Of a stretch of 64,000 bases of DNA, positions 6,837-41,028 are shown piece after piece. Below the pieces are notes generated by a model. That model made no database searches, was not told where the DNA came from, and saw nothing but the letters and a program-made list of their open reading frames with translations. Position numbers and translations under genes: made by a program. Each line of letters begins with the position of its first letter. Within the stretch, counting starts at the first letter, position 1. Source of the DNA: Rhodanobacter sp. C05 (GTDB lineage Bacteria; Pseudomonadota; Gammaproteobacteria; Xanthomonadales; Rhodanobacteraceae); assembly GCF_002001165.1 (NCBI RefSeq), contig NZ_MUNQ01000006.1, positions 372,001 to 436,000 of the forward strand. The letters run 5' to 3'.

Positions 6837-6913
6837 GCCCGAATAGCTCAGCTGGTTAGAGCACTTGACTGTTAATCAGGGGGTCGCTGGTTCGAGTCCA
6901 GCTTCGGGCGCCA
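6837..6913 (+). tRNA. tRNA-Asn (GTT), left copy
   Basis: A 77-nt cloverleaf with perfect 7-bp acceptor stem GCCCGAA/TTCGGGC, D-arm AGCTCAGCTGGTTAGAGC, anticodon loop CTGTTAA with anticodon GTT, T-arm GGTTCGAGTCC and encoded CCA. It is identical over its full length to the copy at 40188-40264 and diverges immediately on both sides, so it is the left attachment-site duplicate of the island. It has its own promoter upstream and a terminator downstream, so it should be functional. Confidence 0.97.
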
Positions 6914-6921
6914 GATGTATC

Positions 6922-9811: not shown

Positions 9812-9856
9812 CATGAAGCCCTGACCCAGCACGCCCATCGACTGCTTCGCGACCCC

Positions 9857-20004: not shown

Positions 20005-20016
20005 TGGTGTGCAGAC

Positions 20017-24400: not shown

Positions 24401-24488
24401 TGGCGTGTGCCATCTGATCGCCAGTCGCCTGCTCGACATGAGCGAGCTGCTCGGTGGACTGGACGTGCGGTCGAGGGACTTCCACTGA
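21417..24488 (+). CDS. dnaE2: DnaE2/ImuC error-prone DNA polymerase III alpha-like subunit
   Basis: A protein of 1023 residues from the ATG at 21417, which overlaps the imuB stop (ATGA). Domains in order: N-terminal PHP ([24 protein letters not shown]), C-family polymerase core ([18 protein letters not shown], then the metal-binding Asp triple in [21 protein letters not shown]), fingers, helix-hairpin-helix, and OB fold near the end ([18 protein letters not shown]). DnaE2 performs mutagenic synthesis across lesions, recruited by ImuB because it lacks its own clamp peptide. It is the last gene of the cassette. The 207 bases after it contain no supported gene. Confidence 0.95.
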
Positions 24489-24695: not shown

Positions 24696-26930
24696 CTATT
24701 CGTTGACTACTTCCGATATTGCTGTTTCTTCCCCCATCTTCCTTAGGTAGTGGTGCTCGTGGCCCGCCTCCTTGAGCAGCGCCCTCAGCTTCGCCAAGTA
24801 ATACGGGACGTCATACTGAGACCAATCCATTGGCGGCCCATTGATTCCGTCCTTGTGGGATCCACGATCCAAAAACCGATGCAGTGCCTTGTACTTATGG
24901 GATGGATCCTGGACAGCTAGTTTTTCCAAGGCCTCGTCGAACTCATCGGTCCCTGCAGTGAAGGTAAAGAACTGCTCCAGAATGCAGCGCATCGTGTTGG
25001 GCACGATCTGAACCATGGACTGGTTGTCCTTGACGTCGCGAAGCACTTGCCATAGCGCGTCGTAGTCATTCATGTACGCCGTGGGATCGAGCGACACCAC
25101 CGTCGTGTATTCGCTCTTCAGAACCCGCAGCATCTGGCACTTCCGATGTGTGTTGGCCAGCTTGCTGCGGGCAAGCTGATGGACGATCTCATGGAAGAAG
25201 AACAAGTTGTGGGTGAGGACAATGACCTGCCGCACCTTCGCCACACCATCCGGCGGCTTGATCAGCTGGTGCTGAATGATGGTGGCCACGTCGTAGACGA
25301 AGTTCTGTGACAGGCTGGAAATCGGGTCATCAATGACCACGATCGTCTTGCCAATGTCGACGGCGCCATGCTCCTCGTGGGTGCCTTTGATCAGCTCCAT
25401 GAAGTAGAGGAAGGAGATCAAGGTCTTCTCCCCCTCGCTCAAGGACTGGGCTGTGCTGTTGGGGTCGTTCGGCCTTGCAAGGCAATACAAGTGCCCGTCG
25501 TCCTCCTTCCGTTTGATCCAGAACGCATCAATGCCCAGCTCCTTCAGAGACCTGTTGATCGCTTCAACCGACGCATCGACGCCAGTTTGAGATTGACGCA
25601 GTTCTGCGAGGCGCACTGTGTTGTCCCTGATCCGATCTGCAACCCCTTCCGTGATCGCTATCTCGGTTGCCAGTTGCGCGTTCAGCGGCGCGAGCGCCGC
25701 ATCATGGCTGGCGTAGGCCTCGGCACGGTCTGCGCACAGGACCTGATAGAACATGGTCCTGATCCTGGTGAATTCGCTATTGCGGTCCTTGAGGCGCTGG
25801 TTGAAGTCGTCCATCTTCGCCTTCGCCGTCGCCAAGGCCGCGATCATAGCTTGGTGGTCGGCGCCTTCAATCGCGACCGAATCGCTAGGCTTGACCTGCT
25901 TGGTCCGCATCAGGGCCAAGTTGGCCTTCATCCGCCCTTCCAGCTTCGACCAGGCAAGCTCCAGCCCTGTGTCCTTGGTGATGGCGTCGTCGAACACACC
26001 GCTCATGCGTTCCTGCAGCCGTTCCAGGCGCAGGGCGTAGTTCGACACCAACGCTTCGACCTTGTCGATCTTGAGTTTGCGACCGCCTTCCAACAGCTTG
26101 GCCAGCTCTTCATGGAAATCGTGAGGCAAGCCCTGCTGGCAAAATGGGCACTGGTCGTCTTTCACATAGGACCGGCCTTGGTCGACCCAGTCGCCATTCC
26201 CCAGCTTGGCGATCAAGGGAGCCAAGCGACTGGTTACGGACACCTCGATGGCTTCGGCCCAGATAGAATCGGTCTCGATTTCCGCTAGGCCAGTAAGGTC
26301 GGGCTGGGGCGCACTCTTGCTTGTCTCGCTGCCAGATACATCCTCCCACCGCTGCTCCAGGCGCTCCATGGTGTTCAACGGGGCGTCCCCGTCGACGGCT
26401 GATTTCCGCAGTTCGTCGAAAAACTTCTTCTTGTCCTTTCCGTAGCCCACCAGCAGCTCCGCAAGCTTTGTCTTCTTGCCCAGGACATGGGCCTTCCAGA
26501 CGTCTTCGACACCGCGAGTGATCTGGGCTTCCACCTGCTTCTTGGCTGTCTCCACACGCGCGCGCAGCGTGGTCAGCTCAGCTTCCAAGACAACGTACTC
26601 GGCTTCCTTACCGTCGATCTCCTTTTGCTTGGCCGTGTCCATCTCACCGATGGTGAAGATGCCCCGCATGGTCTCGCCGATGACCCTGCCCACAAATGCA
26701 TGGTTGTAGACAAGGTGACGAAAAGGGCCGGTTCCGGTCGTCTCGACCTGGCAGTGCGCGAAGATCTGGTCGTTGACAAACCGACCGTGGATTACCTCAC
26801 CGATCGCGGACTTCCCGGCACCGTTCAGGCCATAGATGAAGGTGGCCTGCTTGGAGGTATCTATTTCAATGACGGTGGGCGTCGTCGGATGAAAGCTCTT
26901 GTAGTTGTGGATTGAGATCTTTCTGATCAT
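24696..26930 (-). CDS. RloC/PrrC-like AAA_13 ATPase, candidate anticodon nuclease
   Basis: A protein of 744 residues from the ATG at 26930 (a TTG 21 bases upstream is possible). ABC/SMC-type ATPase: Walker A FIYGLNGAGKS (about 32-41), signature LSEGEKT (497-503), Walker B TIVVIDDP (529-536), H-loop LTHNLFFFHE. Between the halves are coiled coils and CPFC (Cys261/Cys264), placed as the zinc hook of RloC. In the C-terminal part, Arg648-x3-Glu652 and His684 (32 residues after the Glu, the same spacing as reported for PrrC Arg320/Glu324/His356) suggest the tRNase triad; His692 is an alternative. PrrC and RloC cut or excise the anticodon wobble nucleotide when phage or DNA damage inhibits restriction. 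A type I restriction operon lies on the same island. Confidence 0.72.
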   Translation of the reverse strand: MIRKISIHNYKSFHPTTPTVIEIDTSKQATFIYGLNGAGKSAIGEVIHGRFVNDQIFAHCQVETTGTGPFRHLVYNHAFVGRVIGETMRGIFTIGEMDTAKQKEIDGKEAEYVVLEAELTTLRARVETAKKQVEAQITRGVEDVWKAHVLGKKTKLAELLVGYGKDKKKFFDELRKSAVDGDAPLNTMERLEQRWEDVSGSETSKSAPQPDLTGLAEIETDSIWAEAIEVSVTSRLAPLIAKLGNGDWVDQGRSYVKDDQCPFCQQGLPHDFHEELAKLLEGGRKLKIDKVEALVSNYALRLERLQERMSGVFDDAITKDTGLELAWSKLEGRMKANLALMRTKQVKPSDSVAIEGADHQAMIAALATAKAKMDDFNQRLKDRNSEFTRIRTMFYQVLCADRAEAYASHDAALAPLNAQLATEIAITEGVADRIRDNTVRLAELRQSQTGVDASVEAINRSLKELGIDAFWIKRKEDDGHLYCLARPNDPNSTAQSLSEGEKTLISFLYFMELIKGTHEEHGAVDIGKTIVVIDDPISSLSQNFVYDVATIIQHQLIKPPDGVAKVRQVIVLTHNLFFFHEIVHQLARSKLANTHRKCQMLRVLKSEYTTVVSLDPTAYMNDYDALWQVLRDVKDNQSMVQIVPNTMRCILEQFFTFTAGTDEFDEALEKLAVQDPSHKYKALHRFLDRGSHKDGINGPPMDWSQYDVPYYLAKLRALLKEAGHEHHYLRKMGEETAISEVVNE

Positions 26931-27317
26931 GCCCGCCCCCGCGACCTCCAACTTGTTCGCAACATTACCCTCTGCGCATCATGGCAGCAGCTAAGTCGCT
27001 TGTGCATAGCGTCGAGGGTCCCTCCAGGGAATTGACTGCCGCGCACGGTGCGAAAAAAAAGGGGATGCCGCCACGGGCCTGCTAAAACCGACTCTCCCCG
27101 ATTCTTTCTGACGCGTGCAATGGGCTGCGCTTGATCGGTCGACACCTGTATTGGATGTCTGTTCCTGCCGATGACAGCCCTTGCGAGCTCGATGACGCGC
27201 GGGCAAGCTGCGACAGGTGGAGGTCGACCCGTTGCGGACGCTCAGGTTGACAAGCGTTCCGTCAAAAAGCTGACGTTCAGAGGTCGAATGCTGCTCATAA
27301 GACCGGTGCCGTTTACG
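26931..27317. other. Gap without supported gene
   Basis: The 387 bases between the AAA ATPase start and the kinase stop, both on the minus strand, must hold the ATPase promoter. I see no convincing frame on either strand and no strong terminator hairpin. Confidence 0.5.
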
Positions 27318-28976
27318 TCACCTTATGGCTATCAAGTGATTGACCACCTTCAAGCCCTCGTCCGGGTTGGCATACACGTCTCGCTGGTCGAGGATTTCTC
27401 CCTCTTTGTCGAGTAAAAACCAGCGGGCGACTTCCAGAGTGCCAGCCGGCACAAGATGCTTTGCGTCTGCGACGGAAACTATCGCAGTCACGAAGTTCTC
27501 ATGGATGACGTTTTTTGTCGCCTCGTATTCCATGAAATAGCCCAGGGTATAGTCCAGCTTGCTTAGCTGGCGATGCTTGTCGTCGAACAGCACGACGAAC
27601 ACCCGCCGGTCGATTCGCTTGGCCTCAGCCAGCGCTTCCGCGAGCGTGGCAAATGGCGTGGTCCTGAAAAATCCTCGGTATATGACCTGCCGCGTTGGCC
27701 CCTCTATTAGGCCGCGAACTCCTCTCAGTAGGTGCATGCGCACCTTCGCGCTGAAGTCACCAGTGAGGTCGGGTTTTAGCGCATCCAGCCGGAAGATGAA
27801 ATCTGACGAGGAGCGCACGACGATCTCTGTTCCTAGTACGTCGATCTCCCAACGCGGCGAGAACCGCGTCTCATGATTGTCTGATTGGGCGACTCCGAGG
27901 TTCGTGTGAACAGAGGCTCCCCTTTGTTGCATCCCGCCTTGCGTACGCACGAACTTCCCATTCAATTCGGCCACGATGCTGTTGACGACACGATCCATCG
28001 CCTGGTAGACCGCTTGACAGTTAGCGCCCAATTGCAGCACCTCAACGACGCTTTCCCGATCTAGGTGACTCCTGATAAATGCTATGTCAGCCTCCGCCTG
28101 CGATTCGTGATCGGCACTGGGCACCAACAGCGACTCCAACGCCGAAAGCATCGCGTTGGCGCTTGAATACCGCCTGTTGATGGCAGGATTGAAGCAGCGG
28201 TCGAAGAAGTCCAGTAACCGCGGTGTTGCAACACCCTCAACGGTGGACAGCAGGGACAACGCTTTCTTGCGTTGGTGAGGCATATTGCCGTCTGCATCCT
28301 GAAGTGTCGCGGGAAACATGCCGGTCAGCACGTAGAATAGGATGCCGCCGACGAACGCGAGATCGCTACGTTCGTCTCGCTTCGACATACTTCCAATCGA
28401 CAGCTCGGGCAGTCGCAAAAAGCGGTTTCCAATTTCTTGGCCGTGCTCCGTGTTCAGAGTGTCCGCGACCCCCTCCTTGTAGCTGAGACCGAAGTCAAGC
28501 AACATCGGAGCTGCAACCTCTCCGTCCTTGAGGATGATGTTATCCGGCTTGATATCCCGGTGGACCCATTCGTTGGCGTGGATATACGCGACTGCTTTGA
28601 GCAGCGCGAGAGTCAAAGTGGATCCGTCCACCCAGCTTAGCGTCCCTTGCTCCTCAATCCGCTTGTTGAGTGTCGGGCCGGGAATGAACTCAATGACAAG
28701 AAACAGCTTGTAGTCGGGGTCCACATGATTTTGCCCGTTGCTCGCAAGGAGGCGGGGGATCAGCGGGTGCTGGCACGTGTCATACGCGGTGGCCTCCCGG
28801 AAAAACCGCAGCCGGCGCTCGGAATCCTTCTGCTTACTCAGTAACTTTAGGCACCCGGCGGTCCCTGTTTCGTTGTGTTCGACTCGCCGTGTTACACCTT
28901 GGCCACCTCGGCCAAGTTCCTCGCGCCCAGTCCACGCTAGCTCCCACTTTTTGTCGTTCACCCATACTTTGGTCAT
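27318..28976 (-). CDS. Hanks-type Ser/Thr kinase with C-terminal thioredoxin-like segment
   Basis: A 552-residue soluble protein. Kinase domain, residues about 15-290: Gly loop GRGGQG (22-27), Lys44 in CLKLL, HRDIKPDN (139-146) and DFG (161-163), all catalytic residues present. There is no transmembrane helix or PASTA domain. A middle region of about 140 residues is unrecognised. The last about 110 residues (TPFATLAEALAEAKRIDRRVFVVLFDDKHRQLSKLDY... VARWFLLDKEGEILDQ) have the strand-helix pattern of a thioredoxin-like fold, but the active-site CxxC is absent. Free-standing kinases occur in abortive-infection systems (for example Stk2 of Staphylococcus), and the defence setting makes that plausible. 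About 230 bases follow the SRAP gene on the same strand. Confidence 0.82.
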   Translation of the reverse strand: MTKVWVNDKKWELAWTGREELGRGGQGVTRRVEHNETGTAGCLKLLSKQKDSERRLRFFREATAYDTCQHPLIPRLLASNGQNHVDPDYKLFLVIEFIPGPTLNKRIEEQGTLSWVDGSTLTLALLKAVAYIHANEWVHRDIKPDNIILKDGEVAAPMLLDFGLSYKEGVADTLNTEHGQEIGNRFLRLPELSIGSMSKRDERSDLAFVGGILFYVLTGMFPATLQDADGNMPHQRKKALSLLSTVEGVATPRLLDFFDRCFNPAINRRYSSANAMLSALESLLVPSADHESQAEADIAFIRSHLDRESVVEVLQLGANCQAVYQAMDRVVNSIVAELNGKFVRTQGGMQQRGASVHTNLGVAQSDNHETRFSPRWEIDVLGTEIVVRSSSDFIFRLDALKPDLTGDFSAKVRMHLLRGVRGLIEGPTRQVIYRGFFRTTPFATLAEALAEAKRIDRRVFVVLFDDKHRQLSKLDYTLGYFMEYEATKNVIHENFVTAIVSVADAKHLVPAGTLEVARWFLLDKEGEILDQRDVYANPDEGLKVVNHLIAIR

Positions 28977-29207
28977 TCAGCACCCGTCCGCGTTTCGCAG
29001 CGTTGGCGATATGGTTAATGGAAACGATGCTAGCTGATCGAATGTTCCAAAACGGCCATTCATAGGTGGCCGCTCTTGGCCGATTCCGGCCGGTGGCGTC
29101 ACGCTGACCAGAATGCCGACGCGCTGATCATGATCGACTGGTTCTACTGAACAACCACATCGGTGTTCGCAGTCAGATTCAGGTTGCTGCGATCGTAAGC
29201 ATCAAAG

Positions 29208-30191
29208 CTACTTCTGCTGCACCAGTTGATGTTCGTAGTACGGCCGCACACGTCGGTCGAGGATCGCGTACAAGCTCGCGTAGTCGTCAGGACTTGGATT
29301 GAGCCATGCGTCGATGTCATCTTCCTGAATTGGAACGGGACATCGGTCATGGCCCGCCTCGACAACTTCAAAGGGTGGATCATCCGTGATTGCGGCGAAC
29401 GTGTAGAACCCTGGATCGTCGCCGGCCGCCTCAACATAGGTCCAGAGACAAGCTACGAAAAGGTCTTCACCGGTCGATGGCGAAAAGAGAATTTCAACGC
29501 TCTGCTCGCGCTCACCTGGCACCAGCGGTCGTTGCTGCAGATTGTGGAGATAGACGCTTTCGTAGAACCGATCCACGACCATGATCCCGTGGCTGTAACC
29601 AAACACCTTGCGCCAAACGGTCGACAGCTTGTCGCGCCGCGCGTTATATGTGCCTGGCTTCTCGATCTCGTCGGCTTCTGTCCACCCCGGCAGGCGGCAG
29701 CGGTAGCGCATCGGGACGACCATGCGCTCGCCCGTTTCAGAATCTCGAATCATTACCGGAGCGAAGAAACCAGGCCAGATTCTGTCGATGCCGTCGGCCG
29801 GCGCCGGTAAGGCTAAGTCTTCCAGCTTCTTCCTTCCTGCCTCTATTTTGTTTGTCGCGACGCGGCGATCGTTCTCGGCCTTTTTTGTCGGCTTGCTTGA
29901 CGCTAGCTTGGCGTTCGCGTCGACGAGGCGTGCTTCCTGGACGCCGATCTCAGCCGCGATCAAGGCGATTGCCTCAGTTTCCGCTTCGCGCGCCATCCCG
30001 ACCGTGCCAATGTCCAGCACGCCACTCGTGGCATCGGTCATGGCGCGGCGCATCGCCTTAGGGACAACCTTGACCCAAGTGCCCTTCTTCTTAGTCCAGC
30101 CGGCGAGCTTCGTGAATTCCTTGATGGCGAGCTTTCCGCCAAACCGCTCGTATTTCCTGAAGTCCGCCCAGATCTGCGCCGAGTAGCACAT
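29208..30191 (-). CDS. SRAP (YedK/HMCES-like) abasic-site DNA-protein crosslink protein
   Basis: A 327-residue protein, longer than E. coli YedK (222). It starts Met-Cys (MCYSAQIWADF), and in this family Cys2 is exposed after Met removal and forms a thiazolidine with abasic sites in single-stranded DNA. Later signatures are present: ARRDKLSTVW (NAR-type), DRFYES (the Glu of the active site), FAAITDDP, and AGHDRCPVPI with the conserved His. An insertion of about 80 charged residues (residues about 60-140, rich in Ala, Lys, Glu) is unusual for the family. Known role: protects abasic sites during replication and the SOS response. Neighbours are the type I R-M/RT operon upstream and the kinase downstream. 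Confidence 0.82.
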   Translation of the reverse strand: MCYSAQIWADFRKYERFGGKLAIKEFTKLAGWTKKKGTWVKVVPKAMRRAMTDATSGVLDIGTVGMAREAETEAIALIAAEIGVQEARLVDANAKLASSKPTKKAENDRRVATNKIEAGRKKLEDLALPAPADGIDRIWPGFFAPVMIRDSETGERMVVPMRYRCRLPGWTEADEIEKPGTYNARRDKLSTVWRKVFGYSHGIMVVDRFYESVYLHNLQQRPLVPGEREQSVEILFSPSTGEDLFVACLWTYVEAAGDDPGFYTFAAITDDPPFEVVEAGHDRCPVPIQEDDIDAWLNPSPDDYASLYAILDRRVRPYYEHQLVQQK

Positions 30192-30293
30192 GTCGAAACC
30201 TGCTTGATGGGACTTCGCTAAGAATAGAGCGCAGTCAGCTGCACTTGAAACTGCTCACCCGCCCGCCCTCACGCACAGTCACCATGAGAAGGC

Positions 30294-31667
30294 CTAAGGG
30301 GAAACCCGGTTCGCGTCCATCTGCTCCTGGATCTCAGAGAGACGCGTAGTGAAGAATTCAGTCAGCGCCTTGTCCTTTACCTCACGAGCGTAGCCGAGGC
30401 CCTCGTGATGGAAGGCGTTGTGCATTGTCTTTTGCCCGAGCTCTGTCAGGCGTTTTCCGAGGTTCATAGGCCTCTTCCTTTTGGCGTTGAGCTCATGCAC
30501 GCGGACCAATTTTCCCTTCTCAGAACGGAGGAGATATTCGGGTGCGGTGAACCGAGAGAGAAGCTTGTTGAAAAGCTTCTGCGGTAGAGACTCGATATTC
30601 GCCCAGAGAAGGCGATTGAGAAGTGGCAAGCCGCCGTTCCAAGTGGCGGCGAGCTTCTTGTCCGAGAGTTTCAGGTAGGCATAAACGAACTTGCGGACCA
30701 GCTTCGCGTCCTGGTTGTCCCCCTTGTTGGCAAAGATCGACTGGATGTCTCGGCAGCGGTGCCGCTGGAGTTCCTTCACGGTCCATAAGTCGACCTTCTT
30801 CTGATTCACACGCAGGCCGTGGCGGTCGAGATTCCTCGTAAGAAGGAGCATGAGCGCATCAACGCTGTCCGTTCCGTTGACGAGGATCATTTGGTCGTCG
30901 GCATACCGGAAGTAGCTCGCGCCCGCTGTCGCGCAGATCGCAGCGGCGAACTTGTCATACTTCTGGAGGTAGTAATTGGCAAGCAACCGCGAGCAGTCGG
31001 CCAAGGCATCTTGCGGGATTCCTACACCCTGCGGATGCAGACCCGTGTTGCGACGGTTCCACTGATTGAGGAAGTAGAAAAGAAGCGCGATCACCCAGCC
31101 CTTCTCCGCAGGGGCGTCTTCGCGAATCCACCGCTCCAGAATGTCGAGTCTGATGCAGTCGTAAAAGTTTGAAAGATCGAACTGAAGGGCGTGCGTGTAA
31201 GCGCCGGTTTCAAGCTGCGCAAACAGCAACGAGTTGAACTCCCCAAAGGCCGACGTCCATGCACGAGGGTTGAAGGCGTAGCGGGCGTTGGAAAATCCGG
31301 AGTCGAACTCGACGTCAATGTTCTCAAGCTTCCGCAATTCTCCGCCAAGCGTCCAGCCGCCGAAGGTGTGGTCTGTCCGGTTGCCGGAAATAACCTCCTC
31401 CAGTTCCTTGATGCAGAAATAGAAGACGATGTAGTCCTCGATGCAAAACACCGGGATCGTCCGAGCCACTCCATGGCCCTTGTTCATCACGATTTCCTCC
31501 TCCGGGATGGACGGAGCGTAGCGAGACGACTTCACCGCTTCGAAGACCTTGCGAACCATGGCCTCCTTGTTGGCAGCGGTCTGGGGGATGTCGATGGGAA
31601 ACGTGCGGTTTTTGAAGGCTTTCCAAAAACTGCTGTTAAACCACCGACTGAAATTCTCCCAGTTCAT
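30294..31667 (-). CDS. Reverse transcriptase of the UG/Abi-like type, last gene of the hsd operon
   Basis: A 457-residue protein with a reverse-transcriptase palm: motif A LQFDLSNFYDCI (catalytic Asp164), motif B QGVGIPQDALADCSRLLANYYL (213-234), motif C FRYADDQMI (YADD at 255-258) and motif D LRVNQKKV. No maturase, endonuclease or integrase domain is seen; the C-terminal about 150 residues are helical and basic. No retron-type msr/msd structure was identified nearby. The ATG overlaps the hsdS stop by four bases (ATGA), so it is translated together with the restriction system. Free-standing RTs of this kind act in phage defence (DRT systems) but the exact group cannot be decided by eye. Group II intron origin is unlikely. 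Confidence 0.87.
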   Translation of the reverse strand: MNWENFSRWFNSSFWKAFKNRTFPIDIPQTAANKEAMVRKVFEAVKSSRYAPSIPEEEIVMNKGHGVARTIPVFCIEDYIVFYFCIKELEEVISGNRTDHTFGGWTLGGELRKLENIDVEFDSGFSNARYAFNPRAWTSAFGEFNSLLFAQLETGAYTHALQFDLSNFYDCIRLDILERWIREDAPAEKGWVIALLFYFLNQWNRRNTGLHPQGVGIPQDALADCSRLLANYYLQKYDKFAAAICATAGASYFRYADDQMILVNGTDSVDALMLLLTRNLDRHGLRVNQKKVDLWTVKELQRHRCRDIQSIFANKGDNQDAKLVRKFVYAYLKLSDKKLAATWNGGLPLLNRLLWANIESLPQKLFNKLLSRFTAPEYLLRSEKGKLVRVHELNAKRKRPMNLGKRLTELGQKTMHNAFHHEGLGYAREVKDKALTEFFTTRLSEIQEQMDANRVSP

Positions 31668-32962
31668 GAGAGGGGGGCGAAGGCTTCTTTGAGGACAGCT
31701 TGGAGGAGGTGGTCGGCGTGGATACGGGCGTGCTCAATCTCCGCTTCCAGCGTCCGGCAGGTCGTCATCAGCGCCTCCACTCGCTCCACAATCGCAGCTT
31801 GCTCAGCGAGGGGTGGAAGGGGGATGAGAACCTGAACTAGCCGGCTCGACTTGATTCCTTTCGCCGTGATTCCAGACGCTTTTTCGGCGAGCTGCGACTT
31901 CACTGTGCGGGATAGTATCGCGAACAGGAAGAAGCGTTTCTCGGAAAGAATTGGCTGAATCGTTATAAGCCGCTGACCGAGAGCAAACCGTTCGCTCATG
32001 TTCAATTGGCAGGCGTTCCCAAGAGGCGCTTCGGTCGTAAAGAGAATATCTCCATTGTCGGGAAATCCACGAACCATGTGACGGCTGAAGCTCTCTTCTG
32101 ACAAGTAGTCACGCGGCGTGTCGGAAAATCTACCGAACTTCACGTTCTTGGCAGTTATGAGCCTCACTCCACTTGAGATCTTGTTTGGCGTCTTACCCCG
32201 GTAATCGAAAAATCGCGTGACTGCACCCAACCGGCACCACTCCCAGCCCTTCGGGATCTCGAAGGGGATTTCGCTGAGGGCGATTTTTGGCAGGGGCTTT
32301 TCGGTGCGGAGTTTCTTGTCGGCGATGAGACGGGCTTTTTCGACTTTGATGCGATGAAGGAGCTGACTCGCGGGTTCCACGTCCGGGTGGGCGACTCGCC
32401 AACCTTCCGTCAATTTGCCCTGGATCGCCTCCTGCAGGATGGCTTGCTTGAGCTGAGGGAGCTCGTGACGATCACTGTTCTCTTCAAGGATGAATCGGAT
32501 CGTTTCCCTAATCCGATCAATCCGCGACACGAAAGCGCGCTGCTCAACCATGCTCGGGACAGGAAGTTCGATCTCGGCAAGGCCGGAGTAGTAGAGTCGC
32601 TTCCGCACTGCCCCGGAGCTATTGCGAGCAATGGCTTCGAGTCCGTAGTCGCTCTTGAGGAAATGCAATAGGTAGTGCGGATCAAGTCCCTTGCGGCAAG
32701 AGAAGACGGTGTAGTCCGGGCTGGTAAAGCCAGTCTTGGACTCGTTATCGGCGAGGCCGATAGAGCCGACGTTCACCCTCATAGGGTTGTAAGCAAACCA
32801 GTTCTTTTCAACACGCTGATAGCGTGCGAGATCGGCGGAGGTATCACGCGAGCTGGCATGGAGACCATGCTCATTGCTCACGCCGATTAGTCGACGATCC
32901 TTCGCGCCCGATGAACCAAGTGGATTGCACTCCTCGCGGATGTAGTCGCCGAGCTTTGCCAC
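31664..32962 (-). CDS. hsdS: Type I restriction-modification specificity subunit
   Basis: A 432-residue protein with two target-recognition domains separated by helical spacers: the first about 1-145 ends LAEIELPVPSMVEQRAFVSRI, with the spacer helix ending ILQEAIQGKLTEGWR; the second about 220-370 starts IPKGWEWCRLGAVTRFFDYRGKTP and ends VQVLIPLPPLAEQAAIVERVEAL. The repeated P-P/S-x-x-EQ motifs are diagnostic. It determines the bipartite DNA target of both methylase and nuclease. It uses a GTG start that overlaps the hsdM stop by one base (TAGTG), and its stop overlaps the RT start (ATGA). The first recognition domain lacks the usual W-x-x-x-x-L-G opening, which suggests divergence or exchange. 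Confidence 0.93.
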   Translation of the reverse strand: MAKLGDYIREECNPLGSSGAKDRRLIGVSNEHGLHASSRDTSADLARYQRVEKNWFAYNPMRVNVGSIGLADNESKTGFTSPDYTVFSCRKGLDPHYLLHFLKSDYGLEAIARNSSGAVRKRLYYSGLAEIELPVPSMVEQRAFVSRIDRIRETIRFILEENSDRHELPQLKQAILQEAIQGKLTEGWRVAHPDVEPASQLLHRIKVEKARLIADKKLRTEKPLPKIALSEIPFEIPKGWEWCRLGAVTRFFDYRGKTPNKISSGVRLITAKNVKFGRFSDTPRDYLSEESFSRHMVRGFPDNGDILFTTEAPLGNACQLNMSERFALGQRLITIQPILSEKRFFLFAILSRTVKSQLAEKASGITAKGIKSSRLVQVLIPLPPLAEQAAIVERVEALMTTCRTLEAEIEHARIHADHLLQAVLKEAFAPLS

Positions 32963-34401
32963 TAGGAATTTCCGTTGAGGGATGATGTCAACTTAGCGAC
33001 CAGATCGCCGATCTTTTGCTGACGTTTTGCCAGGAGGTGCAGTAGTCCCTCGACGGTATACTCGTTCTCCTCGACTGTGGAGTTCGGATTCTTTACATCC
33101 AGGTCGAACCCCTTCTTCAAATCCCCGATCTTCACGTTCCACGCAACGTCACTTACCTCGCGGTTGTCCCACCATTCGATCAGCGGCGCGAACTCTTCGA
33201 ACTGGATGGCTTTGGTTTTTGAGTAGCTCTTTTGCCCCTCGGGCAAGCGGTGCTCCCAATACCAGATTTCCTTGGTGGGCGTGCCCTTTTGGAAGAAGAG
33301 CAGGTTCGTGGAGACGGTGGCGGGAAAGAAGGTGGATTGCGGGAGGCGCACGATGGTGTGGAGGTTGCAATCGGTGAGGAGTTTTTCGCGGATGCGCTCC
33401 TTGTAGCCATCGCCGGTGATGCAGCCGTCAGGCAGCACGATGGCGCAGCGTCCACCGGGCTTGAGCAGCTGGATCATGAGGATGACGAAGAGGTCGGCGG
33501 ATTCCCTGCAGCGGAAGGACGCTGGGAAGTTTGTCTCCACGCCGTCGGCAATGCTGGCGCCGAAGGGCGGATTAGCGAGGATGCAGTCCACCTGTTGCCT
33601 AGGGCCGATGGCGTTGTATTCGGTCTTGAGGCTATCGAGGTAGTGCCAATCGGGTACGTCGAGTCCGTGGAGGATGAGATTCGTGAGGCCGAGGACATAG
33701 GAGACGGGCTTCAGCTCCCAGCCCGTGATGGATTTCTGGAGGATGCCTTCGTCGTCAAGGGTGTGAACTTCCTTTTCGCGGATGAAATCAATGGCAGCGC
33801 TGAGGAAGCCGCCGGTGCCAGCGGCAGGGTCTAGGACCTTTTCGCCCAGCCTGGGCGCGGTCATCTGCGTCATGAGCTGGGTGATGGCGCGGGGAGTGTA
33901 GTACTCGCCCTTGTTTCCGGCATCGCGCAACTCGACCAAGATGGATTCATAGACGGTGCCGAAAACGTGGCGGTCGTCGCTGCTGTTGAAGTCGAAGCCA
34001 TTGAGCTGGTTGATGACCTTGCGTAGCTCGTAGCCGGACTTCATGTAGTTGTTCGAGCCGTCAAAGACTTCGCGAACGAGCATGGCGCGCGGCGCAGCGT
34101 GCGGAGCCTTGAGGTTCTTGAGCGTGACGAAGAGGCCGTCCGTGGGATGGTCGATGAAGAGGATGAGTTCCTCGCCGGTGATGCCTTCAGCGTCGGCGGC
34201 CCAGTGTCGCCACTGGAATTTTGCGGGCATGACGGACTTGTAGCGTTCGCGGATTAGTTCGAGCTCCTGATCCTTGTCGTCGAGGATTTTCAGGAAGAGA
34301 AGCCAGCCGAGTTGCTCCAGACGCTGGGCATCGCCGGAGACGCCACGGTCTTGCCGCATGATGTTGCGGACGTTCTTGATGATGGATGAGATATTGGGCA
34401 T
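32962..34401 (-). CDS. hsdM: Type I restriction-modification DNA adenine methylase subunit
   Basis: A 479-residue protein. N-terminal helical domain (MPNISSIIKNVRNIMRQDRGVSGDAQRLEQLGWLLFLKILDD) then N6-adenine methylase core with motif I DPAAGTGGFLSAAIDFI and catalytic motif IV ANPPFGAS. C-terminal coiled-coil tail (HLLAKRQQKIGDLVAKL) contacts HsdS. Forms the M2S methylase and, with HsdR, the restriction complex. Twelve bases after the hsdR stop. Confidence 0.96.
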   Translation of the reverse strand: MPNISSIIKNVRNIMRQDRGVSGDAQRLEQLGWLLFLKILDDKDQELELIRERYKSVMPAKFQWRHWAADAEGITGEELILFIDHPTDGLFVTLKNLKAPHAAPRAMLVREVFDGSNNYMKSGYELRKVINQLNGFDFNSSDDRHVFGTVYESILVELRDAGNKGEYYTPRAITQLMTQMTAPRLGEKVLDPAAGTGGFLSAAIDFIREKEVHTLDDEGILQKSITGWELKPVSYVLGLTNLILHGLDVPDWHYLDSLKTEYNAIGPRQQVDCILANPPFGASIADGVETNFPASFRCRESADLFVILMIQLLKPGGRCAIVLPDGCITGDGYKERIREKLLTDCNLHTIVRLPQSTFFPATVSTNLLFFQKGTPTKEIWYWEHRLPEGQKSYSKTKAIQFEEFAPLIEWWDNREVSDVAWNVKIGDLKKGFDLDVKNPNSTVEENEYTVEGLLHLLAKRQQKIGDLVAKLTSSLNGNS

Positions 34402-34413
34402 GAGTGTCTAGGG

Positions 34414-36798
34414 TCAGGCAGCCTTGTAAAGTTCGTCAGTTAGCGCGTGGATCGCGGCCTCGTAGGTTGACTTGCCACCGAAGGCGCGGATGATTTCAAC
34501 CGGAGAGCCGAGCTTGCTGAGCGGGTCGAGGCGGATGATCTCGGGGTTCTCGAAATCGAGCCCACCGTCGTCGGCGTATTTGTCGAGGAGCGCGGCGATG
34601 ACCCTGCGGGCAAGGTCTCCGTATTTGGTGAAGTAATCGCGCTTCTTCACCTGCTCCGCGCGCTCCTTGCGGGTAAGTGGCTTCCGCTCGTAGGCGACGT
34701 GGCAGATCAAATCGAAGGGATCGAAGGCTGAGCCGATTTCCTCGTTCAATGCGGCAAAGATAACGCCTTGTTGCTCCAGCTCATCGACGATGGCGCGCTT
34801 TTTGTCGGCGAGATTCCACGAAGTGAGAAAGTCATCGAGCGAGGCGTAGGCTATGCGGACGCTCTTGCGTGTGTAATCGCGCAGGCTCTCGGTGATGATC
34901 TTGCCATCGTTGCCCATGTATTGGACGCGCTCCTTGATGACAGTGACTTCCACGCCGTTGACGGTGACTTTGCGGCGACGCTCCGGCGCAGTGGGGTCGC
35001 CGTCGATTGAAACATCGGGCTTTTCCGCCTCCGGGAAGTCGATCTCGTCGCCGGTGATGACGTCAGTGACAGGCTTGTCGTCGGTTTCATCGTCGGCGTC
35101 CGCGATGTCGTCGTTCTCGCTGAATTCTTTCACACGGACGGGATCGCCGTCGAACTCCTTGTCCGCAAAGAGCGCGGTGACATTGCGAAAATCCATGATG
35201 GTGAAGTAGTGCTTCCCAAAGTCCTCATTGATGCGGGTGCCGCGTCCGATGATTTGCTTGAATTCGGTCATGGAGCCGATGTTCGAGTCGAGGACGATAA
35301 GCTTGCAGGTCTGCGCGTCCACTCCCGTGGTCATGAGCTTCGATGTCGTAGCGATGACGGGGTAAAGCTCGGTGGGGCTGATGAAGGCGTCAAGGTGGCG
35401 TTTTCCCTCCTCGTTGTCCCCAGTGATTTGCATCACATATTTGCTGTTGACGGCGACGAGATCGGCGTTGGCGTTGGCCAATTCCTTTCGCATCCCCTCG
35501 GCGTGCTCGATGTCCACACAGAAAACGATGGTCTTGGAAAAGCGGTCGCTACCTTTGAGAAAATCCGTGATCTTCTGCGCGACGATGTGGCGGCGTTCTT
35601 CGACCACGAGGTGACGGTCGAAGTCGGTGCGGTTGTAGAGGCGATCTTCAATTTCCCTGCCATCCTTGTCCTTGAAGCCCTTCGGCGGACGCCAGCCTTC
35701 GGCGTCGATGTCGAGCGTGACCTTTATGACCTTGTAGGGAGCGAGAAATCCGTCGTCGATGCCCTGCTTGAGCGAGTAGGTGTAGAGCGGTTCGCCGAAA
35801 TACTCAGAGCTGGAAATTTCCTTGGTCTCCTTCGGCGTGGCGGTGAGGCCGATGTGAGTCGCACCTTTGAAGTATTCGAGAATCTCGCGCCATTTACTGT
35901 CTTCTCGGGCGCTGCCGCGATGACACTCATCCACAATGATTAGATCGAAAAATTCGGGGCTGAACTGCTTGTAGGCGTCGGCGTCGTTATTGTCGGAAAG
36001 GCCCTGGTAGAGGGCGAGATAGATGTTGTAGGCAGTGTCTATCTGCTTGTGCTTGATGACGGTCATCGCGTCCTTGAAGTGGCGGAAGTCGCCGCGGACG
36101 GTCTGGTCGATGAGCGCGGTGCGGTCGGCCAGAAATAGGATCCGCTTCTTCAGGCCGCTCTTCCACAGGCGGTAGATGATCTGGAAAGCCGTGTAGGTTT
36201 TGCCGGTGCCCGTCGCCATGACGAGGAGGTGGCGGTTGTTACCTTCGCTTCGGGCGATTGCTTCGACCGCGCGGTTGATGGCGATTTGCTGGTAATAGCG
36301 TGGCGAGCGGGTTGAGCCGTCTGAGAAGTAATCCTGCGCAACGAGAGACTCGATCTCATCGTTGATCCCTTTAAAGGCTTTGTATTTCTGCCAGAGCTTC
36401 TCAGGCGACGGGAAAGCGTCGAGCGGGAGTTCTGTCTCGATAGGTCCCGACTTCACCGTCTTGTCGTGGAAGAGGAACCCGTCACCGTTGCTGCTGAAGA
36501 CAAATGGAACGTCAAGCGGCTTAGCGTAGCCGAGGGCCTGCTGCATTCCCGCGCCGACCGTGTGGTTGTTGTCCTTGGCCTCGATGATCGCGAGAGGGAT
36601 GTTGGGCTTGTAGTAAAGGATGTGGTCCACGCGCTTCTTCGCGCCGCGAGCGTGGATTTTTCCGCGCACATAGATGCGGCCGTCGGTGAAGCCGACTTCC
36701 TCACGAATCTGGGTGTCGAGGTCCCACCCCGCTGCCACGAGGCTCGGCGTGATGAACTTCGTGCAGATGTCGCGCTCGCTGAGGGATTTTTTGTTCAT
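34414..36798 (-). CDS. hsdR: Type I restriction endonuclease subunit (EcoEI-like)
   Basis: A 794-residue protein, first gene of hsdR-hsdM-hsdS-RT. N-terminal PD-(D/E)xK nuclease: Asp58 in RVDHIL, then Glu73-x-Lys75 in AIIEAKD. Superfamily 2 translocase: Walker A VMATGTGKT (193-201), DEAD-type box VDECHRGS, motif III TATP, and later GRGTR. C-terminal helical region (LTRKERAEQVKKRDYFTKYG) for binding the methylase. ATP-driven translocation and random cleavage at unmethylated sites is the known role. Length is nearly that of the EcoEI/EcoAI group (about 810) and shorter than EcoKI. No disruption was seen, so the system should be active. Confidence 0.95.
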   Translation of the reverse strand: MNKKSLSERDICTKFITPSLVAAGWDLDTQIREEVGFTDGRIYVRGKIHARGAKKRVDHILYYKPNIPLAIIEAKDNNHTVGAGMQQALGYAKPLDVPFVFSSNGDGFLFHDKTVKSGPIETELPLDAFPSPEKLWQKYKAFKGINDEIESLVAQDYFSDGSTRSPRYYQQIAINRAVEAIARSEGNNRHLLVMATGTGKTYTAFQIIYRLWKSGLKKRILFLADRTALIDQTVRGDFRHFKDAMTVIKHKQIDTAYNIYLALYQGLSDNNDADAYKQFSPEFFDLIIVDECHRGSAREDSKWREILEYFKGATHIGLTATPKETKEISSSEYFGEPLYTYSLKQGIDDGFLAPYKVIKVTLDIDAEGWRPPKGFKDKDGREIEDRLYNRTDFDRHLVVEERRHIVAQKITDFLKGSDRFSKTIVFCVDIEHAEGMRKELANANADLVAVNSKYVMQITGDNEEGKRHLDAFISPTELYPVIATTSKLMTTGVDAQTCKLIVLDSNIGSMTEFKQIIGRGTRINEDFGKHYFTIMDFRNVTALFADKEFDGDPVRVKEFSENDDIADADDETDDKPVTDVITGDEIDFPEAEKPDVSIDGDPTAPERRRKVTVNGVEVTVIKERVQYMGNDGKIITESLRDYTRKSVRIAYASLDDFLTSWNLADKKRAIVDELEQQGVIFAALNEEIGSAFDPFDLICHVAYERKPLTRKERAEQVKKRDYFTKYGDLARRVIAALLDKYADDGGLDFENPEIIRLDPLSKLGSPVEIIRAFGGKSTYEAAIHALTDELYKAA

Positions 36799-37186
36799 GC
36801 GGCTAGAGCGCGTTCTGGATCGGACATGCTATTTTTCCCCTGGCCGCTGACGAGGCGGGTGCCATTCTCTCGCTCGAATACTTCGGCTTGGCGATAGTAG
36901 TTCAGGTTGCCTTGAAGGCGTTCATCAATCTGCGTGTCCTGGTATCCCTCATTAAGTCGCTGCCCCACCACAGGAGCAGTCCAAGGGGGATTTTGGCATG
37001 CACGAGCCGGTTGTGGCTGCTGGCAATGGTATTGACTGGACGCCGGCGCGCGGATCAACTTGATTGACGACCGAGTTACTGCTCTCAATCGCTGAGATCG
37101 CCTGCACTTCCTGAATTTCCAGCCCGACAGTAGCGCGCGACGTCGCTAGCATTGAGCGATCAATCACTCTTGAACGCGAGGTGCAC
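36799..37186. other. Intergenic region between divergent hsdR and 37187 gene
   Basis: 388 bases that must hold the hsd operon promoter on the minus strand and that of the small gene on the plus strand. I see no convincing frame and no clear inverted repeat operator; no LexA2-type palindrome is present. Confidence 0.45.
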
Positions 37187-37561
37187 ATGGCCATCTACCA
37201 TCTGATTTCAGTAGCTGAGGACCAACTCCGAACCAAGCACGGCGATCAGGCCGACCGCGAACGCGCTGTTGGAGCTGCGGTCATCGAAGCTTGCCTCAAC
37301 CCCGAGTCAAGAAAGCCCGCAGCCAAGGGTCACTCCGATCAGGCAGGGCAGGATTCACCGACGCGTCTTGTAGCAGTGACGCACGTCGATGAACACGAAA
37401 GCGACGAGTTCGTCATGTGGGTATGGTCTTCGGGCGATTCCGTTTGCATCGCTGATTTGCCAGGCGATGATCTCGACCTGATCATCAAGCTCGCGCATGC
37501 CGTGAGAATGAAGACGATGGTCGACTCTGGCAACTTGTCGCCGACGGTGGTGCCGGACTGA
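37187..37561 (+). CDS. Hypothetical protein
   Basis: A protein of 124 residues from the ATG at 37187; a GTG six bases earlier is possible. Not recognised. It begins MAIYHLISVAEDQL, is acidic overall, and has a beta-like middle (RLVAVTHVDEHESDEFVMWVWSSGD) followed by a helix (LDLIIKLAHAVRMKTMV). Small and soluble, no signal peptide. GC content and codon use look like those of its neighbours. It converges with the minus-strand gene at 37566, only 5 bases apart. Confidence 0.5.
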   Translation: MAIYHLISVAEDQLRTKHGDQADRERAVGAAVIEACLNPESRKPAAKGHSDQAGQDSPTRLVAVTHVDEHESDEFVMWVWSSGDSVCIADLPGDDLDLIIKLAHAVRMKTMVDSGNLSPTVVPD

Positions 37562-37565
37562 CGGT

Positions 37566-37784
37566 CTATCGACTTGCAGGCAGCTGCGTGAGGGTGATGG
37601 CGGAGTCTTGGACATACATCTCCACAACGGCGTCCTCACCGGTGGCGAGCTGTTCGTCGCGGGAGAGTTGGTTGGCTTGCTTGATGGCTTGTTCCAGCCG
37701 TAGGCGGCTGGCGATATCGTGGTGACCGCGACAGATTCGCCAGAGTCCGGCGCTGTCTTCCTTGATGGAAAAGGTCCCACTCAT
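37566..37784 (-). CDS. Small hypothetical protein
   Basis: A 72-residue protein with pattern strand (GLWRICRGHHDIA) - helix (LRLEQAIKQANQLSRDEQLA) - strand (AVVEMYVQDSAITL), which resembles small DUF2188-like domains in order of elements, but the match is weak. Soluble and acidic. No partner identified; it is convergent with the gene to its left. Confidence 0.45.
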   Translation of the reverse strand: MSGTFSIKEDSAGLWRICRGHHDIASRLRLEQAIKQANQLSRDEQLATGEDAVVEMYVQDSAITLTQLPASR

Positions 37785-37936
37785 CGTTGTAGCCCAAATG
37801 AAAAGGTGCGTCCCGGTTCGTCGGTTCCACCTGACTCGTTCGACGCCGGCATGGCCTGACGTCCGTCGGCTCGGGCCGGACTAGCGGGACGGCTTGAGAG
37901 TGTCATCGAGGCTTGCTACTCGTATGTCAGGGGTTG

Positions 37937-37993
37937 CCGACACGCAGTGTCGGTGGGAGGACTGTGTGAAACGTTACCGGGTAATCCTCACAC
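37937..37993. promoter_or_regulatory. Cluster of inverted repeats in the 38227 leader region
   Basis: CCGACAC-GCA-GTGTCGG (37937-37953) is followed by GTGTGA (37964-37969) paired with TCACAC (37988-37993) around an inner TTACC-G-GGTAA (37974-37984). The second set is nested, so it could fold as one interrupted hairpin in RNA. No frame explains these. Confidence 0.45.
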
Positions 37994-38039
37994 GGAGAGC
38001 TTCCGCCGCCCCTCGGTGAGGAAAATAATCTCGATAAAT

Positions 38040-38072
38040 TTCCTAGGAATTTCCTAAAAATTTTTTAGGAAA
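38040..38072. promoter_or_regulatory. AT-rich palindromic operator-like array
   Basis: A 10-bp palindrome around CCTAGG (38040-38049) abuts a perfect 23-bp palindrome with arms TTTCCTAAAAA and TTTTTAGGAAA (38050-38060 and 38062-38072). Thus TTTCCTA-type half-sites are repeated at least three times in about 35 bp, in strikingly A/T-rich DNA. It sits about 155 bases before the gene at 38227, so a repressor or integration-host-type factor may act here. Confidence 0.5.
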
Positions 38073-38226
38073 AAACTGCCTAAAGATTTCTGTTGAAATA
38101 CTGTTTTGATTAAGGCTCAATACTTCTCGGGCGCAGACCGCCACCCGGCTGAGATGTCTACACAGCGTGGAGATATCTGGGTTAAAAAGAATTCGGAGAG
38201 TCGACACATAACAGGAGGAATACAAG

Positions 38227-38697
38227 ATGCAGAATGCGGCAATGGTGACGGGTTCACCTCAGGAAGATAATGATGTGGCAACATTGATTTCGCTCTTTGC
38301 AGAGCTCTGCGATCAAGATGCGACTTACAATGTGGCCATGAGTCGCGCGCCTCTTGTTGCAGTCCCTGAGCGCTTGGTTACACAGGGTTTTCATGTAGGT
38401 GAATCAACAAACCCTGAATTCCCAATCGAGATTTGGCTTCGTGACAATGTATTAATGTCGGGTGCAATGCTCATTGACGAAGGCGAGGCGGAAACACTCG
38501 CCAGTCTAATCCGACTTGCAACTGATGGATTTGTAGAGAAGGGAAGTATTCCTCTCAAATGGTCGGGGGAAACAGTAACGATTATTCCGCAGCATCGAGG
38601 GCGAGTTCGAATCAAGCTGCATTCTTCAGGCTTATCGGCTCAACTGAAAAGATCACAAGTTCACAATATGGTCTGTGAGCTTCGTTCAGCTGCCTAA
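38227..38697 (+). CDS. Hypothetical protein with strong ribosome site
   Basis: A 156-residue soluble protein, not recognised. A canonical AGGAGGAA stands 8-9 bases before the ATG, stronger than most sites in the window. Acidic helical N-terminal part (EDNDVATLISLFAELCDQDATYN), then a mixed alpha/beta body and a basic C-terminal part (RGRVRIKLHSSGLSAQLKRSQ). Codon use is more A/T-rich than in flanking core genes, consistent with foreign origin. Long structured leader upstream and a hairpin downstream suggest an independent, regulated transcript. Confidence 0.6.
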   Translation: MQNAAMVTGSPQEDNDVATLISLFAELCDQDATYNVAMSRAPLVAVPERLVTQGFHVGESTNPEFPIEIWLRDNVLMSGAMLIDEGEAETLASLIRLATDGFVEKGSIPLKWSGETVTIIPQHRGRVRIKLHSSGLSAQLKRSQVHNMVCELRSAA

Positions 38698-38712
38698 TTG
38701 ATAATATATATG

Positions 38713-38758
38713 GTCACTTCGGTGGTGCTGGATAGGATCCGTCCTGCACCACTGTGAC
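38713..38758 (+). terminator. Long hairpin downstream of the 38227 gene
   Basis: GTCAC/GTGAC (38713-38717, 38754-38758) outside GTGGTGC/GCACCAC (38722-38728, 38746-38752) and inner GGA/TCC form a 46-nt hairpin just after the stop codon. There is no T-tract, so it may be an RNA-stabilising or attenuated terminator. Confidence 0.5.
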
Positions 38759-38873
38759 TCGCGAAGCGCAGGCAGCAGCCTCGCGTCAGGTGAGCGAGAG
38801 CGTTTGTAGGGTAACGTCATACGAAGTGTTGGCGTCGTCGAGCAGGTACGATTCAATAACTTTACGAGGTAAA

Positions 38874-40058
38874 TTAGGATTTCGTATCACGAACCATTTT
38901 AAAGAATGCCTCGTCCAACGTTGCGGCTGAACGGTGGATGTTTTCGTCAAACAAGTGTGCATACCGTTCCGTGGTGCGGCTCTGCGTGTGTCCGAGCACC
39001 CCGCCAACCTCCGCAAGAGAGTGACCCGCCGATAGCAACACAGAAGCGCTGGTGTGGCGAAGATCATGTAGTCGCACGCCTTCTAACCCTAAATCTTTTT
39101 GTAAGGCAGCCCAGAACTTTTTGATTCCAACGATCGGTTTTGCTGGATCTGACCTGCGAGGGAAGACAAAAATGGATGCTGCCCCGACCTTTTCCTGCCG
39201 GCTTTCTAGAATTTCGACCGCGGCCTTCGACAGTCCGACGACGTGCTCGCGATTTTGCTTGGTGTGATGGCTTGGCTTGATCCAAAGCTTCCGTGTGAGA
39301 TCGAACATGTTCCAAGTGGCTGCAAGGACTTCGCCTCGTCTAGCGCCGGTGAGAAGAAGTAGCCTCACAACATCAGCCGCGTTCTGATTACGATGCCTGT
39401 TCAGATAGGTGACGAGGGCTGATTGCTCGGCAGTTGTTAGAAAGCGTTCTCTGGCGCGTTCGCGATAGGCGATCACGCCCTGGCAAGGATTTTTCTCGAT
39501 CCAACCTAAGTTGACTGCGACGCCATACATCCCGGAAATGACCGCCCTCAGCCTATTGGCTGCGGTCGGTGTCCCAACCAGTGTATGCATCAATGCCGTC
39601 ATGTCGCCCTTGGTGAACTGGTTCAACTTCCAGTTACCAAACTTCGGTAACAGATGCTTGCCAAGTGCCCGGCGATACTCGTTGAGCGTAGTGGTTCTGT
39701 TTCCTTTGGTTGTTGCGTGTTGCCCCAGATAGTAGTCAGCAAGTTCGCGCACGGTCTTGGCTGCCCGGGCTCGTCGTCGTTCAACCGCTGGGTCGACTCC
39801 TTTCGATTTCTGGGCGTAGAGTTCCCGAGCATGCTCACGAGCTTCTTCGACAGAGAGACTTGGATATCGACCAATGGTTACCTTTCGATCATTCCCACCA
39901 CCCGGTGTGCGATAGCGGAACATGAATGATCGAGTCCCACTAGGTTTGACCCTTACGCCGAACCCGGTCACCTCGGTATCCCAGATAAATACGTCCCCAG
40001 AGACTGCCGGGCGTAGAGATTCGACAAGCCTCTTGGTGAGCTTTTGACCTGCTGGCAT
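38874..40058 (-). CDS. int: Tyrosine integrase of the genomic island
   Basis: A 394-residue P4-type integrase. N-terminal DUF4102-like arm-binding domain (about 1-90: LTKRLVESLRPAVSGDVFIWDTEVTGFGVRV), SAM-like core-binding domain (100-195) and catalytic domain with Arg240 (TGARRGE), Lys267, His331-x-x-Arg334 (HDLRH), His357 and nucleophile Tyr366 (TTERYAHL), all present. It should integrate and excise the island at tRNA-Asn. It starts 129 bases from the right tRNA copy and reads inward; the putative arm sites at 40082-40100 lie in its leader, where the integrase may repress itself. Confidence 0.95.
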   Translation of the reverse strand: MPAGQKLTKRLVESLRPAVSGDVFIWDTEVTGFGVRVKPSGTRSFMFRYRTPGGGNDRKVTIGRYPSLSVEEAREHARELYAQKSKGVDPAVERRRARAAKTVRELADYYLGQHATTKGNRTTTLNEYRRALGKHLLPKFGNWKLNQFTKGDMTALMHTLVGTPTAANRLRAVISGMYGVAVNLGWIEKNPCQGVIAYRERARERFLTTAEQSALVTYLNRHRNQNAADVVRLLLLTGARRGEVLAATWNMFDLTRKLWIKPSHHTKQNREHVVGLSKAAVEILESRQEKVGAASIFVFPRRSDPAKPIVGIKKFWAALQKDLGLEGVRLHDLRHTSASVLLSAGHSLAEVGGVLGHTQSRTTERYAHLFDENIHRSAATLDEAFFKMVRDTKS

Positions 40059-40081
40059 TGATCCCCTCTGCGGTGCTGCCC

Positions 40082-40101
40082 GGGGAAGCGCCAGGGAAGC
40101 G
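40082..40101 (+). repeat. Putative integrase arm-type sites, right end
   Basis: GGGGAAGC at 40082-40089 and GGGAAGC at 40094-40100, same orientation and 12-bp spacing as the pair at 6961-6979. They lie 24 bases upstream of the integrase start. Confidence 0.5.
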
Positions 40102-40187
40102 GAGTGCGTGATTTCGAGGGTTCATTATACTTCGTTGTCTGAAAGAATGCGGTATATATATGATATATATCAATGGCTTGGATGATA

Positions 40188-40264
40188 GCCCGAATAGCTC
40201 AGCTGGTTAGAGCACTTGACTGTTAATCAGGGGGTCGCTGGTTCGAGTCCAGCTTCGGGCGCCA
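40188..40264 (+). tRNA. tRNA-Asn (GTT), right copy
   Basis: 77-nt cloverleaf identical to the left copy, anticodon GTT, CCA encoded. Upstream sequence is A/T-rich island DNA with a GATATATATC palindrome (40162-40171), while the downstream terminator looks native. It thus is the right attachment-site duplicate. A TATA-like box close upstream may drive it. Confidence 0.97.
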
Positions 40265-40272
40265 GTTTGGCA

Positions 40273-40303
40273 AAGGCCGGCACATAGCCGGCCTTTTGCT
40301 TTT
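40273..40303 (+). terminator. Terminator after right tRNA-Asn
   Basis: Perfect 9-bp stem AAGGCCGGC/GCCGGCCTT (40273-40281 and 40287-40295) with ACATA loop and T-rich tail. Probably the original terminator of the chromosomal tRNA gene. Confidence 0.85.
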
Positions 40304-40315
40304 ACCGCATTCCAT

Positions 40316-40876: not shown

Positions 40877-40964
40877 GACGACATCCCTGTGTTGTCAGGG
40901 ACCTCATGCTAGGACAGTGCCGATGTGCGGCCAGTGGCGCAGCCGACTGCCCGAGCGTCGGACT

Positions 40965-40987
40965 CTGCTGACGCATCCTGTCAGCAG
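40965..40987. promoter_or_regulatory. Perfect inverted repeat upstream of uvrB
   Basis: CTGCTGAC-N7-GTCAGCAG, 42 bases before the uvrB start and close to a TTAAAAT -10-like box (40994-41000). A damage-regulated operator is plausible but it does not match the E. coli LexA box exactly. Confidence 0.4.
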
Positions 40988-41028
40988 GCTCGATTTAAAA
41001 TGCGCTGCCCCGCCCACATCTGTAGCCG

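Follow-up and report, generated by a model that had tools for sequence, protein, structure and literature searches.

What does a reverse transcriptase (RT) do as the fourth gene of a type I restriction operon, and does it need that operon? The question is raised by a 64,000-nucleotide stretch of the Rhodanobacter sp. C05 genome (contig NZ_MUNQ01000006.1, positions 372,001 to 436,000; here referred to as the window), in which hsdR, hsdM and hsdS are followed by a gene for an RT of group UG13b. The occurrence of this RT group behind varied restriction systems in distant microbes suggests a portable second line of defense. An earlier note, made from the sequence alone, had described the RT as the fourth gene of the operon, and we found four intact genes (lengths in amino acids, aa), the last two joined by an overlap:

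34414..36798, minus strand: hsdR, EcoAI/FtnUII-type restriction subunit, 794 aa (NF046051; HSDR_N, ResIII and EcoEI_R_C matches)
32962..34401, minus strand: hsdM, N6-adenine methylase, 479 aa (N6_Mtase, 205 bits; HsdM_N)
31664..32962, minus strand: hsdS, specificity subunit, 432 aa, GTG start (Methylase_S; PADLOC Specificity_I)
30294..31667, minus strand: UG13b RT, 457 aa, ATG start (PADLOC RT_UG13b, 449.6 bits; RVT_1; AlphaFold)
31664..31667, minus strand: ATGA shared by the hsdS stop and the RT start, read from the sequence

In hidden Markov model (HMM) searches, HsdR matched NF046051, the EcoAI/FtnUII R model, over positions 1-768 of 768 (1153.6 bits), and HsdS matched Methylase_S in two stretches (64 bits). 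Since R, M and S subunits are all present in one operon, the system is type I, of the EcoAI/FtnUII kind. The first two genes are spaced by 12 nucleotides (nt). Direct reading of the next two junctions agreed with the earlier note: the hsdM stop overlaps the hsdS GTG by 1 nt (CCTAGTGGC), and hsdS and the RT gene share the 4-nt ATGA (CTCATGAAC). To judge from this arrangement, translation of the RT is probably coupled to that of hsdS. The RT may not end its transcript, because a SRAP-domain gene (window 29208-30191, minus strand) starts 102 nt downstream on the same strand; this gene had no tblastn match in the related RT loci compared with it. A scan returned 1 promoter-like site (2.2 in shuffled sequences) and 11 terminator-like sites (7.7 in shuffles, standard deviation 2.7), one of the latter on the minus strand between the RT and SRAP genes (30245-30228). 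Neither the scan nor this site was used as evidence.

The RT itself was readily assigned. PADLOC RT_UG13b matched over positions 1-429 of 430 with 449.6 bits, compared with 104.5 bits for the next group, UG19, and RVT_1 scored 48.1 bits. The HMM comparison thus upheld the suggestion that the RT is of the UG/Abi/DRT kind, and the motifs listed at that time as complete (DLSNFYD, GIPQ and YADD) are all present. None of the NCBIfam RT models reached its own cut-off. A group II intron RT was rejected (TIGR04416, 70.6 bits versus a cut-off of 300; no intron in Rfam), as was a retron of the St85 type (NF038233, 35.4 bits versus 235; no RNA family match in Rfam), in line with the first description of an RT lacking intron or retron RNA. 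Four relatives tested against PADLOC (L004 to L007) also scored UG13b top, and the remaining loci were assigned to the group by tblastn and tree only.

The AlphaFold model of the window RT has a mean predicted local distance difference test (pLDDT) score of 89.1 and is predicted to consist only of helices from residue 297 onward. Among the best 50 entries listed in a structure comparison, a list that leaves room for other families, it aligned nearly end to end with AbiA and DRT6. The C-terminal part alone gave no significant sequence match. Complete close members of the clade are all 455 to 457 residues long. AbiA, AbiK, DRT4 (UG15) and DRT6 likewise appear to have an RT core that stands alone and is followed by a C-terminal part of helices only, and here too we found no conserved neighboring RNA. 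UG13b is nevertheless a group separate from these four, and activity of the window RT is a prediction; our literature search found no described mechanism for UG13b.

No conserved template RNA turned up near the RT. Over positions 27000-41000, Rfam returned only the tRNA and one below-threshold match at the same spot. Sequence homology among the close RT loci ends at the RT open reading frame (ORF), with no conserved flanking noncoding RNA (ncRNA) in the loci compared, and two window flanks folded no better than shuffled sequences. Nor did synonymous sites in eight close RTs point to an RNA hidden inside the gene: their excess reached 31.2 at most, and shuffles put the 95% limit at 37.1. An RNA partner that is encoded in trans or changes fast is possible. 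DRT2, DRT9 and DRT10 belong to the same broad UG group; they use an ncRNA template, according to the sections of PMC12632851 covered, whereas none was found beside the window RT.

The earlier note had suggested surveying genomes for RT genes just downstream of hsdS. Using a five-member RT profile, we scanned genome contigs and obtained 47 loci, ten of which encode RTs 57-68% identical to that of the window. Directly behind restriction-system genes stand 6 of these 11 closest RTs (the window's and the ten), five with type I and one with type IIG genes, all with a 4-nt overlap; the other five (L014, L016, L017, L018 and L019) have no restriction genes directly in front. Reading the genes locus by locus, we found 11 of 49 RT loci linked to restriction, window included. 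These counts are lower bounds, as several contigs break off within the RT or close to it. Metagenome-assembled contigs make up most of the relatives, and restriction types derive from HMM or BLAST matches. Before counting, we left out L004, which is the gene also listed as L016, and L009-L012 and L057-L059, which are weak, short or different RTs, and we counted as unlinked L014 (RT near TIR-GIY-YIG and HNH genes), L024 (noncontiguous type III genes about 2 kb upstream) and L053 (a weak HsdM-like match about 2 kb downstream). The linked loci besides the window, the last five more distant, are as follows:

L013 (Methylomirabilis): hsdR-hsdM-hsdS-RT
L015 (Pseudomonadota): hsdR-KilA-N-hsdM/S fusion-RT, with a further ORF 2 nt behind the RT
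L020 (Betaproteobacteria): hsdM/S fusion-hsdR-RT, RT broken
L021 (Nitrospirae): R/M remnant-YhcG-hsdS-RT
L022 (Comamonadaceae): type IIG enzyme (809.3 bits)-DprA-like-RT, contig ending inside the RT
L023: Fic-hsdM-hsdS-146 aa-RT-hsdR
L027: hsdM-short hsdS-hsdR-196 aa-RT
L028: Mod-like, Res-like, two genes, RT
L031: hsdM, two genes with below-cut-off HEPN matches, hsdS, RT
L032: a large, partly masked gene, then RT

The readable end of the L032 upstream gene is 25% identical over 148 residues to the type IIG protein of L022. In 9 of the 11 linked loci, the RT start overlaps the stop of the gene before it by exactly 4 nt. Such start/stop overlaps are frequent in operons; the pattern goes beyond chance because the same arrangement recurs behind unrelated restriction genes. 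Two findings had been named in advance as telling jointly against the proposal, a linkage unique to this locus and an RT group that is normally autonomous. The linkage is not unique, while the second part stood to the extent that the RT is often found alone.

Some neighbors of these RTs were observed in passing. The two HEPN-matching genes of L031 (6859-8803) sit inside a type I operon with a UG13b RT. In L042, a SLATT_5 membrane protein gene (9390-9998) overlaps the RT start by 1 nt, a pairing that resembles the SLATT partner of DRT10, and in L005 a SLATT gene faces the RT.

UG13b is rare. Among 369 genomes of the class, 233 of the family and 398 in a sample of the phylum, it was detected at E <= 1e-40 in 2, 1 and 1, respectively, with the own genome counted each time. 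Three plasmid records held distant members at E <= 1e-20, and phage records gave no match at 1e-10. Among viral contigs, a five-sequence query returned 5 loci, including two clear relatives (L008 and L009), and two scans with two-sequence queries confirmed no relative. As a control for restriction adjacency we used 44 other RT loci (32 + 12) with flanks of at most 1.5 kb; the UG13b loci were trimmed alike and own-locus queries omitted. Restriction matches were present in the flanks of 6 of 48 UG13b loci and of none of the 44 controls (Fisher p 0.027), in a test blind to restriction partners of types not shared between loci. The control searches varied in quality. UG17 at 1e-30 gave 30 loci, one of them strong (511 bits) and the rest at 105-152 bits, some multicopy; the weak ones are probably other RTs. 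The UG21 search found 2 loci, including one in the own genome, and retron St85 gave 12, of which 4 were above the cut-off. The Drt2 search returned two pieces of one broken gene and was not used.

If the RT moves between partners, its history should differ from theirs. The RTs of L015 and L020 are 84.3% identical in DNA, over a stretch that opens at base 2 of the start codon and closes 5 nt beyond the stop, and the genes upstream are unrelated (an HsdM/S fusion and HsdR, respectively). Identity of the L015 RT to the solitary RTs of L016 and L017 is 75.6 and 78.6%, running from the start codon to about 100 nt before the stop. In L028, the fragment just before the RT resembles the end of the L032 upstream gene and looks like the scar of a former partner. 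In the RT tree, the window, L013 and L014 form one three-member clade, with L013 and L014 closest. In the HsdR and HsdM trees (11 rows each), the window sits beside Aliarcobacter and not beside L013, its HsdM on a long branch. A single co-inherited hsdRMS-RT cassette was therefore rejected, as the RTs of the window and L013 share a clade and their HsdR and HsdM proteins do not pair. From the unlike upstream genes, the near gene-exact borders and the nonmatching trees, the RT behaves as portable cargo: it has entered restriction operons on more than one occasion, and it also exists alone. Linkage to restriction, mapped on the 44-row RT tree, requires 8 changes, compared with about 10 in shuffles (40 of 500 as low), and so is clustered at most weakly. 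Ratios of nonsynonymous to synonymous substitution rates (dN/dS) of 0.14 for the L015-L020 pair (297 codons) and about 0.06 for L015-L017, with any synonymous rate above 1 being rough, show at the codon level that the RT is under purifying selection. In L021 (6575-7126), the start of hsdR is fused to the end of hsdM, ahead of YhcG, hsdS and an intact RT; by its gene content, this is a locus in which restriction genes were lost and the RT retained.

We also inspected nine related EcoAI/FtnUII-type hsd operons, which have the hsdR-hsdM-hsdS core in common with the window. No RT is listed behind hsdS in any of the nine stretches, plasmid gene tables being incomplete; 4 of the 9 hold another gene close behind hsdS:

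Aliarcobacter: a DUF4297 gene 11 nt behind hsdS, no RT listed in the stretch
Three other operons: an overlapping unknown gene; DUF262; an AAA-family gene, then nuclease genes
L112, L114 and L116: nothing listed within 190 nt behind hsdS
L119: symE 220 nt behind hsdS
L115: operon broken by an insertion sequence, no hsdS listed

With moderate confidence, we favor a UG13b RT that is a self-contained, portable DNA polymerase of the Abi type and that forms a second layer beside restriction while also standing alone. The ATGA overlap would tie its translation to the upstream restriction gene, and the restriction operon would supply co-expression and co-inheritance. The RT would sense infection on its own, not via HsdS, make DNA without a dedicated neighboring RNA template, like the Abi polymerases and DRT4, and act once a phage has passed restriction. 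Of the two ideas put forward in the earlier note, a second layer beside restriction fits best. Dependence on HsdS recognition is not supported by the loci: the same clade follows HsdS, an HsdM/S fusion, HsdR or a DprA-like gene, 5 of 11 close members lack a restriction operon immediately upstream, and the complete close RTs differ by at most two residues in length. Direct control of the RT by the Hsd complex looks less likely. Tempering confidence in the favored reading are an RT that is not provably the last gene of the operon in every locus and a control set for restriction adjacency that is imperfect and weak. More tentatively, UG13b may be a general plug-in layer for type I, type IIG and perhaps type III systems, in which DNA synthesis would be switched on when restriction is evaded and the partner would be exchangeable since the RT senses a common restriction product or state.

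It is rather unlikely that the RT is a latent effector in the manner of PrrC, restrained by the restriction complex and freed when a phage anti-restriction protein blocks it. Its operon position resembles that of prrC in hsdMSR, the ATGA overlap would help to set the stoichiometry, and both this logic and the repeated displacement of toxins in type I and III operons are described in the portion of PMC3506569 covered. There, PrrC-PrrI shares with the window an extra effector gene beside the hsd genes, but its effector is an anticodon nuclease (RNase) in a type I operon, whereas here it is an RT whose partners vary widely. These are unrelated (HsdS, HsdM/S fusion, HsdR, or a DprA-like protein after a type IIG enzyme) and missing from 5 of the 11 close loci. 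The RT has no extra partner-specific part, and a single interface for all partners is hard to imagine.

We consider it unlikely that there is no functional link, with the RT having merely taken a place behind promoter-supplying operons as defense genes cluster in islands. The 38 of 49 counted RT loci that are unlinked, the genes behind hsdS in 4 of 9 related operons and the position of the window operon on a 33-kb tRNA-Asn island with other defense genes are what such clustering predicts. However, the 4-nt overlaps in 9 of 11 linked loci and the flank comparison, for all the imperfection of its control, speak against it. Least probable is an RT that acts on restriction products, with nuclease-made DNA ends or fragments priming or triggering synthesis so that any restriction enzyme suffices: this accounts for interchangeable partners of types I, IIG and perhaps III, but a solitary relative is equally constrained (the L015-L017 pair) and the L021 RT is intact although its hsdR and hsdM are a fused remnant.

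Restriction systems and defense RTs are each well studied, but among the papers listed in our literature searches none connects UG13 RTs with restriction operons; the main survey of UG/Abi RTs lay outside their scope, and earlier notice is possible. The portions of the literature covered do not present AbiA, AbiK, DRT4 or DRT6 as constant members of restriction operons, although the part of PMC8934634 covered mentions one AbiK that seemingly belongs to such an operon and an RT-HEPN gene that shares an operon with restriction genes. As close RTs occur with different partners and alone, restriction and abortive infection as one circuit can be tested by gene swaps.

The window operon sits on an island of about 33 kb between two tRNA-Asn repeats, which carries the following:

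6837..6914, plus strand: tRNA-Asn copy, border repeat at the left end, its 78 bp identical to those of the right copy
10599-11486, plus strand: Lit-like protease (PADLOC Lit, 393.9 bits)
11755-12363, minus strand: papain-like protease (Peptidase_C70, 45.9 bits)
18752-24488, plus strand: lexA, imuB-like and, as we take it to be from its sequence, dnaE2-like polymerase genes
24696-26951, minus strand: AAA_13 ATPase, PADLOC candidate PDC-S06 (710 bits)
27318-28976, minus strand: PD-T4-6-type defense protein kinase (660 bits)
38874..40058, minus strand: tyrosine integrase just inside the right end (Phage_integrase, Arm-DNA-bind_3)
40188..40265, plus strand: second tRNA-Asn copy, border repeat at the right end

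The PDC-S06 ATPase weakly resembles PrrC (55 bits). Each of the 21 genomes of the genus that were searched, the own one included, has both outer flanks of the island. Among the 20 others, 10 have the flank matches on separate contigs. The distance between the matches is about 71 kb in G521, about 1.4-12 kb in four (G536, G539, G541 and G553) and only 138-180 bp, which resembles an empty site, in five (G520, G522, G527, G531 and G534). Flanks that lie near each other in 5 of 20 relatives and farther apart on a single contig in 5 others make the tRNA-Asn site look like a hot spot of integration.
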